Shown in pieces: positions 33,836-38,093 of a DNA stretch of 64,000 bases. This DNA comes from Zymomonas mobilis. GTDB taxonomy: Bacteria > Pseudomonadota > Alphaproteobacteria > Sphingomonadales > Sphingomonadaceae. The DNA lies in contig NZ_VFOF01000001.1 in assembly GCF_006715975.1 (NCBI RefSeq), positions 878,001 to 942,000 of the forward strand. Direction: 5' to 3'. The position numbers and the translations under genes were made by a program. How positions within the stretch are numbered: position 1 is the stretch's first letter; the number at the start of each line of letters is the position of its first letter. Below the pieces are notes generated by a model. It had not been told where the DNA came from and did no database searches. It saw only the letters and a program-made list of their open reading frames with translations.

Positions 33836-33919
33836 TCTCCCCGACAATCAAAAGAAGCTTGTTACCGGAAAGGCTGGATATGGCCATTGATATTCCGGCT
33901 TCTTTTTGAAGATGGAATC

Positions 33920-35269
33920 ATGATGACCGTTGTTTTGCCTTTTATCGCCTTTCTGGTCGGGCTGCTTTTTGCAGCCTTGCCATTACTGTTTTTTATCCGG
34001 CAGCAGAAAGAAGAACTGAACCGATGGCAGAAGCAAGCGGTTGAATGGGCAAAAACCGAAGAACAAGCAAAAAGAATTCCAGCTTTGGAACAGGCCGCAG
34101 AAAGCTGGCGTGAAAAAGCTTCGCAATTGATGGCGGAGCAGGCCGCTAATAAACGCGGTGAAGAAGAGCGCGAAAAAGCTTATCGTCAGCAAATCGAACA
34201 ATTGAAGGCCACAGAAGAAGCTTTATCGCAAAAATTCGACAGTCTTGCGGCAAAAACTTTGGAAAAGGCGCATGGCCAGTTTTTGGAACAAGCCCAGATG
34301 CGCTTTTCAAAATCTGAGAGAGAAGGCGAAGCCAAGCTAGAATTGTTGTTGCAGCCGGTCAAAGACAGCCTGAAACGGTATGAAGAATCAGTGAAGCAGG
34401 CAGAACAGCTTCGTCAGACCGAATATGGTAGTCTGACTGCCTTGGTGACAACCATGCGAGAAGGGCAGGAGGCGGTTAAAAACGAGGCCAGCAAGCTGGT
34501 AAATGCCTTAAGAACGGCACCAAAAGCCCGTGGGTGTTGGGGGGAACAGCAGCTTCGCAATGTCTTGGAAAGCTGTGGCTTAAGTGAATATGTGGATTTC
34601 GAAACCGAAGTCAGCATTAATACGGAAAAAGGCCGGTTAAGACCGGATGCGATTATCAGGATTCCAAATGGTTCTATTCTGGTTGTCGATTCCAAGGTTT
34701 CTTTGAACGCTTATCAAGATGCCTATGATGCAGTGGACGAAGATCAGCGTAAACTTTATCTGCAATCCCATAGTAAAGCGATCAAGAACCATATCGATGG
34801 GTTGAGCCAGAAGAATTATTGGGATCAGTTTAAAGAAGCCCCCGATTACGTTATCATGTTTATTCCAGGTGAGCATTTTCTGTCTGCGGCGTTAGAGCAG
34901 GATCATAATTTATGGGAATATGCCTTTCAAAAGCGGGTTTTATTGGCAACGCCGACTAATTTGATCGCGATAGCGCGCACGGTGGCGGCGGTGTGGCGGC
35001 AGGAAGATATTGCCCATAATGCTAGAAAAATTGGGGAATTAGGTAAGGAATTATACGAGCGAATTACCAAGGTTGATACGCATATGCGAGCTTTGGGTAA
35101 TAGCTTGGAAAACAGCGTCAAAAATTACAATAGATTCGTTGGGTCTTTTGAATCCCGTGTTTTGGTAACTGCTCGAAAATTTCGCGAGCTGAATATCGAA
35201 ACCAAAGAGCAAGATATCAAAGAGCTGCCAACCTTGGAAATTATGCCACGGGTTGATGATAAGGATTAA
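33920..35269 (+). CDS. rmuC: DNA recombination protein RmuC homologue
   Basis: About 449 residues. One N-terminal membrane helix (about residues 3-25) is followed by a long coiled coil rich in Glu, Gln and Lys (about 30-180), then the RmuC nuclease-like domain with RGCWGEQQLRNVLESCGL and IRIPNGSILVVDSKVSLNAY. RmuC limits DNA inversions at short repeats in E. coli; it is related to restriction-like nucleases. The start is the ATG at 33920; a TTG at 33887 would add 11 residues. Its stop codon touches the terminator of the convergent gene. Confidence 0.93.
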   Translation: MMTVVLPFIAFLVGLLFAALPLLFFIRQQKEELNRWQKQAVEWAKTEEQAKRIPALEQAAESWREKASQLMAEQAANKRGEEEREKAYRQQIEQLKATEEALSQKFDSLAAKTLEKAHGQFLEQAQMRFSKSEREGEAKLELLLQPVKDSLKRYEESVKQAEQLRQTEYGSLTALVTTMREGQEAVKNEASKLVNALRTAPKARGCWGEQQLRNVLESCGLSEYVDFETEVSINTEKGRLRPDAIIRIPNGSILVVDSKVSLNAYQDAYDAVDEDQRKLYLQSHSKAIKNHIDGLSQKNYWDQFKEAPDYVIMFIPGEHFLSAALEQDHNLWEYAFQKRVLLATPTNLIAIARTVAAVWRQEDIAHNARKIGELGKELYERITKVDTHMRALGNSLENSVKNYNRFVGSFESRVLVTARKFRELNIETKEQDIKELPTLEIMPRVDDKD

Positions 35270-35305: not shown

Positions 35306-35545
35306 TTAGTGACCCCGATTGCCCGGCCCACGATCATCATTGCGGGGCCCGTTACGGTCGTTATCCCGACCGATATCGCATTTCATGAATTTGCCCCGGT
35401 TGTCACGGCAACGTTTCGGCGGCATTGGTCTGACACCACATTTAACAAAACGGCCACGGCCATCGCGGCAAGGCGCGCTGAATGCCGGCACGGCCGCCGT
35501 CGTTACAACGGCTAAAGCGGTTAAAGCTGAGAGTAGAATACGCAT
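35306..35545 (-). CDS. Small secreted protein with two Cys-bounded CRD repeats
   Basis: 79 residues from an ATG with a strong TAGGAGA ribosome site, and with its own terminator, so it is a real gene. Residues 1-24 are a signal peptide (ending AFSA). The mature protein has two copies of an 11-residue unit, C-R-D-(G/N)-R-G-(R/K)-F-(V/M)-K-C, at residues 26-36 and 46-56, exactly 20 residues apart. A tail made almost only of Asp, Arg, Asn, Gly and Pro follows. Each unit could form a disulfide loop. I do not recognise a named family or function. Another small secreted Cys-rich gene lies 250 bp upstream on the same strand. Confidence 0.8.
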   Translation of the reverse strand: MRILLSALTALAVVTTAAVPAFSAPCRDGRGRFVKCGVRPMPPKRCRDNRGKFMKCDIGRDNDRNGPRNDDRGPGNRGH

Positions 35546-35670
35546 TAAAGATTTCTCCTAACAAAGGATCAGCGTCGAAAATGTCATGTGATGACACCTT
35601 TGTCGATGAAAAAATCTATCCGAAACGACCCATCTTTTCGATAAGAGTAAATGATGACAAGCTCTGGAAC

Positions 35671-35700
35671 AATAAAAGCCGGATATAAATATCCGGCCTT
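35671..35700 (-). terminator. Intrinsic terminator downstream of the His/Cys-rich micro-protein gene
   Basis: An 8 bp stem GCCGGATA / TATCCGGC (35678-35685 and 35690-35697) with a 4 nt loop is followed on the minus strand by TTTTATT. It lies about 100 bp after the stop of the 54-residue gene and separates it from the next small gene. Confidence 0.75.
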
Positions 35701-35796
35701 TATCGGGTTGACTATATTCTGCAAAGAGTAGGGTAAGGTAGAATTAGGACATTAGAGCTCAGCTTTCAGTTTTTGGAGTGTTGGGGATTGGGTTCA

Positions 35797-35961
35797 TCAG
35801 TGATGATGCATTCGATGAACGGAATGGTGATGGCAGCATCCTTTTTTACAGTGACACTGACATTTCATTTTTGCTGATCTCGGCGGAGCTGCATCAGCAT
35901 AGCTTGCCGGTGCCATCGCCAAAATACCCGCTGCAACAAAAAGTGACATTAGATTCCGCAT
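35797..35961 (-). CDS. His/Cys-rich secreted micro-protein, probable metal binder
   Basis: 54 residues, too short for usual ORF cut-offs. The ATG follows GGCAGGAAA. Residues 1-22 are a signal peptide (hydrophobic core LMSLFVAAGILAMAP, cleavage after ASYA). The mature peptide of about 32 residues holds CQCHCKKGCCHHH and ends in MHHH: five Cys and eight His, which strongly suggests binding of copper, zinc or nickel in the periplasm. A terminator follows. No named family is recognised; roles in metal buffering or sensing are inference. The signal peptide, ribosome site and terminator together support a real gene. Confidence 0.7.
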   Translation of the reverse strand: MRNLMSLFVAAGILAMAPASYADAAPPRSAKMKCQCHCKKGCCHHHSVHRMHHH

Positions 35962-36215
35962 TTTCCTGCCTTCATCCTTCTTAGTGGGTATCTGAAAGTT
36001 ATCAGAGCTTTTATCGTCTGTCTATTGCAAAATACTATCATTAGCATTTTTATTGAGGTAATTTACTTCACAATAAAATGTTGAATGTTTAATTTTTTTA
36101 AATTAACTTGAAAAAAGACGCACATTAACAGGATTTGGCGCTATAAAGCTTATATTATTTTAGAAGTTCCGGTTATTCACCCAAGAATCAACCTCTAAAC
36201 TGACGCGAGAAAAAT

Positions 36216-36572
36216 ATGAGAATTACGCAAGCCTTTACTTTCGAGGCCGCGCATCGTCTCCCGCATGTGCCGGAAACCCATCGCTGCCATCGGTTGCATG
36301 GTCATAGTTATCGGGTTGAACTGCGGCTGGAAGGGCCGGTTAATCCCAAAACCGGTTTTGTTGTCGATTTTTTTGATGTTGAGCATATCTTTGGGCCGGT
36401 TCTGAAACAGCTCGACCATTATTGCTTGAATGATATTGCGGGATTGGAAAATCCGACAGCTGAACATATCGCGCAATGGATCTGGCGTAAAATCAAAAGT
36501 GATCTGCCGCTTTTATCGGCGGTGCTGGTTTATGAAACGCCTCATTGCTGGGCAGAATATCTGGGTGATTAA
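36216..36572 (+). CDS. queD: 6-carboxytetrahydropterin synthase (QueD / PTPS family)
   Basis: 118 residues of the tunnelling-fold pterin synthase family. In queuosine synthesis it turns dihydroneopterin triphosphate into 6-carboxy-tetrahydropterin. Zinc ligands His13, His28 and His30 (RLHGHSY) and the catalytic Cys24 (HRCH) can be seen, as can TGFVVDF and a C-terminal ETP. The ATG is preceded by GCGAGAAAA. No other queuosine gene is next to it. Confidence 0.92.
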   Translation: MRITQAFTFEAAHRLPHVPETHRCHRLHGHSYRVELRLEGPVNPKTGFVVDFFDVEHIFGPVLKQLDHYCLNDIAGLENPTAEHIAQWIWRKIKSDLPLLSAVLVYETPHCWAEYLGD

Positions 36573-36783: not shown

Positions 36784-38093
36784 ATGCGTATTACTATGAT
36801 CGGCTCCGGTTATGTTGGGCTGGTTTCAGGTGCCTGCTTTTCTGATTTTGGCCATAACGTCGTCTGTGTTGACCATGACCAGAAAAAATAGAGCTGCTTC
36901 AAAAAGGCGTTATGCCGATCTACGAGCCGGGTCTTGCCGATATCGTAGCCAATAACGTTAAAGCCGGGCGGCTTTCCTTCTCCAATGATCTGGCAGCTTC
37001 GGTAAAAGATGTCGATGCGGTCTTTATTGCGGTTGGCACACCTTCCCGAAGAGGGGACGGCCATGCGGACTTATCCTATGTATTCGCAGCAGCGCGAGAA
37101 ATAGCGGCTTCGGTTTCTGATAATACCGTTATTGTTGATAAATCGACGGTGCCGGTTGGAACGGGTGATGAAGTCGAGCGGGTTATTCGAGAAGTTGCCC
37201 CCGATCGGAAGATATGGGTGGCCTCTAATCCTGAATTTTTACGGGAAGGTGCGGCTATTGGTGATTTTAAGCGTCCTGACCGGATTGTTATCGGGACAGA
37301 ACAGCCTGAAGCACGGGAGATTATGCAAGAAATCTACCGTCCACTTTATCTTAATCAGTCGCCGATTCTTTTTACCAGTCGCCGTTCCGCTGAGTTGATC
37401 AAATATGCTGCCAATGCATTTTTGGCGACCAAGATCACCTTTATCAACGAAATCGCCGATCTCTGCGAAGTTGTGGGTGGTGATGTTCAAGATGTTGCCC
37501 GTGGTATTGGTGCCGATAACCGTATCGGTTCAAAATTTCTTCATGCGGGCCCCGGATATGGCGGCTCTTGCTTCCCCAAAGATACCTTGGCTTTGCTGAA
37601 GACGGCTGAAAATTTTGCAACGCCCCTTCGTATTGTAGAATCGGTTGTTACCGCCAATAATATTAGGAAAAGAGCGATGGCACGAAAAGTGGCACGCGCT
37701 ATCGGTTCAGATATAAGAGGAAAAAAAATCGGGATTTTAGGGCTGACTTTCAAGCCTAATACCGATGATATGCGGGATGCACCTTCCTTGGCTCTTATTC
37801 AGGGTTTGGAAGATGCAGGGGCAGTTATTCATGCCTATGATCCAGAAGGTGAAGCGCAGGCACGCCCGTTATTGCCCAATGTGATTTTTGAGGATGAACC
37901 TTATAAAGTCGCAGAAGAGGCCGAAGCCTTGGTTATTGTAACAGAATGGGATGCTTTCCGAGCGTTGGATTTAAAGCGTGTCGCTGGATTGTTGAAAAAC
38001 CCGTTATTGATCGATCTTCGCAATATTTATACCGCAGAAGAAGCTAAAAAGGCTGGCTTGGTTTATCATAGCATTGGCCGTTCCGAGGCTTAA
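36784..38093 (+). pseudogene. ugd: UDP-glucose 6-dehydrogenase gene interrupted by a one-base frameshift
   Basis: Ugd oxidises UDP-glucose to UDP-glucuronate for polysaccharide synthesis. From the ATG at 36784 the protein starts normally ([19 protein letters not shown]) but stops after 35 codons at a TAG just past an A6 run (36893-36898). Adding one A restores [18 protein letters not shown] and a full product of about 436 residues, the normal length, with catalytic Cys263 in GGSCFPKDT. The frame that stays open (36912-38093, 393 codons) lacks the NAD-binding glycine motif, so without slippage it should be inactive. A true mutation, slippage at the A run, or a sequencing error are all possible. 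Confidence 0.85.

Follow-up and report, generated by a model that had tools for sequence, protein, structure and literature searches.

Does a short, Cys- and His-rich open reading frame (ORF) on the Zymomonas mobilis chromosome encode a genuine exported protein and, if so, what might that protein do? The ORF lies within a 64,000-nucleotide stretch of contig NZ_VFOF01000001.1 (the window). A previous interpretation of this DNA, made from its letters alone (the sequence-only reading), had placed a secreted micro-protein at 35797-35961 and proposed periplasmic binding of copper, zinc or nickel, with which the predicted ligand-rich peptide is indeed compatible. In what follows, we call the genome of the window G000, two close Zymomonas relatives G001 and G003, and a divergent Zymomonas G002.

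The gene and its signals

The predicted 54-codon ORF was confirmed on the minus strand, where it runs from an ATG at 35961 to a TGA stop ending at 35797 and fills the interval exactly, the plus strand from 35797 being interrupted by stops. The encoded protein, MRNLMSLFVAAGILAMAPASYADAAPPRSAKMKCQCHCKKGCCHHHSVHRMHHH, begins with a basic MR followed by an uncharged stretch, LMSLFVAAGILAMAPASYA, ending S-Y-A, and by the (-3,-1) rule, judged by eye, S-Y-A at A22 forms a plausible signal peptidase I site. The signal peptide was called by eye and with a crude script rule rather than with SignalP; the rule accepts it and predicts cleavage at residue 15 for the close copies and at residue 22 for the divergent copy. 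There is no Cys at the predicted cleavage site, so the protein would not be a lipoprotein. As the sequence-only reading had it, the mature part, counted after A22, comprises 32 residues with five Cys and eight His.

Features of the locus in the window copy
Feature	Position	Strand	Comment
Cys/His-rich ORF, 54 aa	35797..35961	-	signal-peptide-like residues 1-22 and 32-residue Cys/His-rich part
Shine-Dalgarno-like sequence GAAGGCAGG	35965..35973	-	
Intrinsic-terminator-like hairpin	35670..35705	-	3' arm runs into TTTTATT
Possible promoter, operator or leader	35991..36055	-	best-conserved part of the intergenic region on the queD side, roughly -94 to -30 relative to the ATG
79-aa exported-looking protein	35306..35545	-	next same-strand gene downstream; two CRDxxGKFxKC repeats
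queD	36216..36572	+	divergent neighbour, flank outside the finding
rmuC	33887..35269	+	convergent neighbour, flank outside the finding

For both the ribosome site and the terminator claimed for the gene, a matching candidate is present. GAAGG at 35973-35969 ends 7 nt ahead of the ATG; the Shine-Dalgarno-like sequence is identical in the two close relatives, while the divergent one keeps AAGG with the remainder changed. The hairpin (16 pairs, core GCCGGATA-TTTA-TATCCGGC at 35697-35678) sits 90-100 nt past the ORF stop and has a minimum free energy of -22.3 kcal/mol (z -4.57, none of 200 shuffles being equally stable), yet a simple consensus scan does not list it among minus-strand terminators; the same scan gave no promoter for the gene. 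A strong hairpin also separates the Cys/His-rich and 79-aa ORFs in the divergent genome (z -5.58), whilst those of G001 and G003 are known from alignment letters only. An antisense frame of 68 aa (35778-35984, plus strand) is free of stops in both the window and G001, but it was rejected, G002 having no listed counterpart of at least 50 aa.

To gauge how often such an ORF arises by chance, 60 random 64-kb sequences with the dinucleotide frequencies of the window were searched for ORFs of 35-110 aa. Eight of the 39,758 found have at least five Cys and at least eight His, and none of these eight passes the crude signal-peptide rule; in the window, one ORF of 448 passes both the Cys/His and the signal-peptide criteria.

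Conservation within Zymomonas and beyond

An orthologous ORF is found in all three of the other Zymomonas genomes searched (E 2.2e-29, 9.8e-29 and 3.0e-6), at 91%, 89% and, for the divergent genome, 47% identity to the window protein, which as a query gives a single match in its own genome. The closest named record, that of Zymomonas sp. isolate W26, is 89% identical; G003 yields the same protein and the two are possibly one assembly. All four Zymomonas genomes share the order queD, Cys/His-rich ORF, 79-aa exported ORF, rmuC.

Counted from the ATG, the precursor is 66, 66 and 64 aa long in the relatives, although in G002 an in-frame TTG start would give 71 rather than 64. The terminal MHHH of the sequence-only reading is that of the window copy. 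G001 and G003 continue HHHDEPSPNTPKTES beyond its end; in the window, a single base is added after CATCATCAC and a further one in a C run 12 nt on, bringing TGA TGA into frame after MHHH. This +1 insertion ends the window copy 12 residues early relative to the close relatives, and may be either a sequencing error or a real mutation. A UDP-glucose 6-dehydrogenase frame nearby (36784-36912, plus strand) is also broken in the window, after DQKK beside a six-A run (36883-36888), and is intact in G001 and G002, suggesting that single-base sequencing errors are possible, for the shortened copy too.

Invariant in the alignment are SLFVAAGIL, A22, C36, C38, C43, H44, H49 and H54. Cys/His conservation in related genomes, to which the sequence-only reading had looked, is complete for the five Cys of the two close relatives (89-91% identity), although G003 carries an H46R substitution, and partial for the divergent copy, which in the MAFFT alignment keeps three of five Cys (C36, C38, C43) and three of eight His positions (H44, H49, H54). 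With gaps, the Cys matching is ambiguous: MAFFT aligns CxCK, while an alignment by eye would also allow MKCxC to be paired with C34 and C36. In G002, SLFVAAGIL is followed by KSMMKCKCKGCHGAASHKDVSH, the HHH cluster reads HGA and the mature part has three Cys and four His. A small Cys(-His) core thus looks old, with the dense His cluster specific to the close copies. The frame is kept in G002, its length changes being whole codons, and the amino acid changes between the window and G001 fall at residues 23, 25, 26 and 28, just past the signal peptide, and at residue 48.

Substitution rates (NG86) point the same way in every close pair. The dN/dS values are 0.048/0.209 for G000-G001 (54 codons; five nonsynonymous and four synonymous codons), 0.056/0.386 for G000-G003 (54 codons; six and eight) and 0.013/0.108 for G001-G003 (66 codons; two and four), ratios of 0.12-0.23 that, from small counts, indicate purifying selection; for codons 1-22 of G001-G002 they are 0.30/0.75. 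Taken together, the ORF is very probably a real, conserved gene for an exported-looking mini-protein, to judge from its sequence. The earlier interpretation of a selected, exported-looking, ligand-rich small protein holds up to this point, with the qualification that the Cys/His conservation by whose absence it could have been refuted is seen only in part.

Beyond the genus, the gene soon disappears from view. A single-sequence search of 40 genomes gave matches in 28 at E<=1, those below 0.001 being the four Zymomonas only. Profile searches returned 22 non-Zymomonas genomes among 149 of the family at E<=0.1, and two besides G000 among 385 of the class at E<=0.001. The 11 loci inspected from the former and both from the latter are mostly a lone signal peptide, unrelated frames, a cytochrome c or frames with stops. 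Among them, locus L031 (genome G132, E 0.064) has an exported-looking frame in which Cys and His are spaced out. No convincing relative was found beyond Zymomonas in the 149 family and 385 class genomes, whose weak matches were inspected in part, and none in a plasmid collection or in 269 stretches of viral contigs. A scan of GTDB contigs by short exact words gave one locus; it missed G001 and G002 and so is not exhaustive. In the sets searched, therefore, the gene has so far been found to be restricted to Zymomonas.

Nor do family resources place the protein. Pfam gave no family at E<=1 (which also sets aside a Pfam-curated metallothionein), PHROGs a best E of 0.022 and solved structures two matches (E 0.12 and 1.4), all taken as chance. 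The periplasmic chaperone Spy (NF007769), suggested by NCBIfam, was rejected, its score of 13 bits (E 0.091) falling far short of the cut-off of 174. The predicted structure has a mean pLDDT of 54.4, without a usable model. Our literature search, which covered papers without their supplements, found none on the gene. The sequence-only reading thought that the gene may be unannotated; no annotated Zymomonas record was found in the collections used. For Z. mobilis ZM4, the available part of a proteogenomic paper describes just one gene new to the annotation, on a plasmid (PMC7566282), implying that the Cys/His-rich gene was there either already annotated or not detected.

Possible function and its rivals

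We consider that the protein, so far restricted to the genus, may buffer soft metals in the periplasm in the manner of a metallothionein, most likely Cu(I) or Zn(II), and give this a probability of about 0.5, metal binding being read from composition only. A precursor of 64-66 aa (54 aa in this assembly) would be exported by the Sec pathway, cleaved by signal peptidase I after A22 and retained in the periplasm, where the mature peptide would wrap soft or borderline metal ions through its CxC and a Cys-His core (C36, C38, C43, H44), with extra capacity from the dense His cluster in the close copies. Such a buffer would work alongside a CopA-type exporter. A copper-exporting ATPase of this type was found in three of three Zymomonas genomes, whereas a COX1 search for heme-copper oxidase and a search for the NiFe hydrogenase family were negative in all three, so that sequestering fits slightly better than copper or nickel supply. 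Nickel looks the least likely metal, NiFe hydrogenase being the nickel enzyme searched for. Against the buffer, the ORF list of 28-44 kb shows by eye no evident metal-transport gene (four neighbours were family-checked), and the periplasmic Cys may be oxidised instead of metal-bound.

A different proposal is that the protein serves, after export, in the envelope or in redox chemistry, its Cys forming disulphides or having some other use and its His being incidental. The meagre ligand set of the mature divergent copy would suit such a protein, as would the paired Cys of the neighbouring exported small protein, but CxCxC..GCC-HHH is, in our judgement, closer to metal-ligand clusters than to a redox motif, and we think this explanation unlikely, if worth keeping in mind. 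More doubtful is a nascent-chain metal sensor like CutF, CruR or CopL, in which metal binding during export would stall translation and change expression of the 79-aa gene. In favour, the ORF is small, exported and rich in Cys and His, a gene follows on the same strand after 251 bp (179-211 bp in the relatives), and a strong hairpin lies between the two in both window and divergent genomes. The window hairpin, however, is terminator-like and lies 90-100 nt past the stop, sequence immediately ahead of the 79-aa ORF folds unremarkably (z -1.56, 11 of 200 shuffles folding as well), and no copy of four has a PP motif in its last 15 residues. Around relatives of the 79-aa gene in other genera (six loci at five places) there is no exported-looking Cys/His-rich ORF, the four Cys/His-rich frames seen there not being signal-peptide-like by eye, and the 79-aa gene itself has no known metal role. 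Its protein matches 5 non-Zymomonas genomes of 59 searched, has two or three CRDxxGKFxKC repeats in the four examined and reaches no Pfam cut-off (DUF3716, 15.1 of 22 bits).

A small regulatory RNA locus with an incidental ORF would also account for a short unit with a terminator-like hairpin and a conserved upstream block, and sRNAs have been mapped in Z. mobilis intergenic regions (PMC6970203), although none described in the part of that paper available was matched to this locus. Close copies with dN/dS below 0.25, a frame kept in the divergent relative through whole-codon length changes and the lack of any Rfam match in the window make this very improbable. Least likely by far is a precursor of a MNIO-modified copper-binding RiPP, or bufferin: the signal peptide and Cys-rich mature part are as expected, but the protein matches no Pfam family and the MNIO family PF05114 was found in none of the four Zymomonas genomes, as against 5 of 20 genomes in the same search. 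According to the part of the source available, some bufferin genes lie away from any MNIO gene (PMC12452194); here there is none in the genome.

In the region upstream of the gene, 25-nt segments starting at -94 to -54 share 17-20 identities between G001 and G002, with 8-18 in the other upstream segments. The Fur consensus has no match in the 64-kb window at up to three mismatches. Across whole genomes, counted per strand so that near-palindromic sites appear twice, it matches 9 times in G000, 7 in G001 and 10 in G002, against 0, 1 and 1 for backward-pattern controls. One of the ten in G002, GATAACGATAATATTTATC, matches at 16 of 19 positions and lies 90 nt upstream of the Cys/His-rich gene, inside the best-conserved block. 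A weight matrix was built from 10 of 26 listed sites, two of the ten overlapping, picked by eye for iron-type neighbours, whose gene kinds were likewise judged by eye without a family call. It scores the G002 site at 15.0 (training sites 20.0-26.0), a value reached by 5 of 500 shuffles and by 1 of 63,982 window positions. The best upstream scores elsewhere are 4.5 in G000 (reached by 164 of 500 shuffles), 4.5 in G001 (168 of 500) and 2.7 in G003 (306 of 500).

These results do not support control of the window copy by Fur or iron, there being no consensus match and a matrix score at shuffle level; nor does the Fur matrix scan show a metal-responsive operator there. Only for the divergent copy does Fur remain a lead, and a weak one. 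All four Zymomonas genomes have a strong Fur-family gene, and three have a weaker one. It is a rather remote prospect that the protein is a metal sponge of the periplasm, peculiar to the genus, and that iron starvation once governed its expression through this Fur-like site, with control lost in the close copies, including that of the window. On that view, cells taking up iron would produce the peptide, which would bind soft metals entering along with it.

Two other Fur-box-like sites emerged from these scans. One (around G000:C1:288713) precedes a frame resembling, by eye, a TonB-dependent receptor whose N-terminal part, RRHRHHHDGQGRFDHGDKHRQDHPHDHHGHNN, is rich in His and which may be a further exported metal-ligand protein. 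The other, kept in three Zymomonas genomes (G000:C1:1515736, G001:C7:1971926 and G002:C1:1935169), lies some 1 kb beyond the strong Fur gene, before a frame resembling, again by eye, an inositol monophosphatase.

Comparison with known systems

If the protein does bind metal, as in the soft-metal buffer we favour, an industrial ethanol producer would have a minimal exported metal buffer that belongs to none of the named families tested. The gene would then be an example of lineage-specific metal handling and of the pace at which ligand-rich peptides alter their His and Cys content. Otherwise it would be an ordinary small orphan gene.

Like CutF, CruR and CopL, as far as the available text describes them (PMC9973294), it is under 150 aa (54-66 aa), with a signal peptide by crude rule and eye and a putative Cys/His metal site. 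The filter given there for CutF-like proteins asks for fewer than 150 aa, an N-terminal signal peptide, PP among the final 15 residues and a same-strand downstream gene within 1,000 nt (PMC9973294), and the Zymomonas protein shares the downstream gene at such a distance. By that filter it is not CutF-like, the PP motif being missing in all four copies, and it differs further in the terminator-like hairpin and in a downstream gene of no known metal role. With bufferins, going by the available part of their description (PMC12452194), it has in common export, richness in Cys and a proposed part in metal buffering; in the absence of MNIO enzyme and family match it stands apart from them, and a bufferin identity was rejected. 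In being short and dense in Cys or His it resembles bacterial metallothioneins and His-rich metal stores such as SmtA and Hpn. SmtA and Hpn are cytosolic, however, whereas the Zymomonas protein matches no Pfam family and has a signal-peptide-like start.
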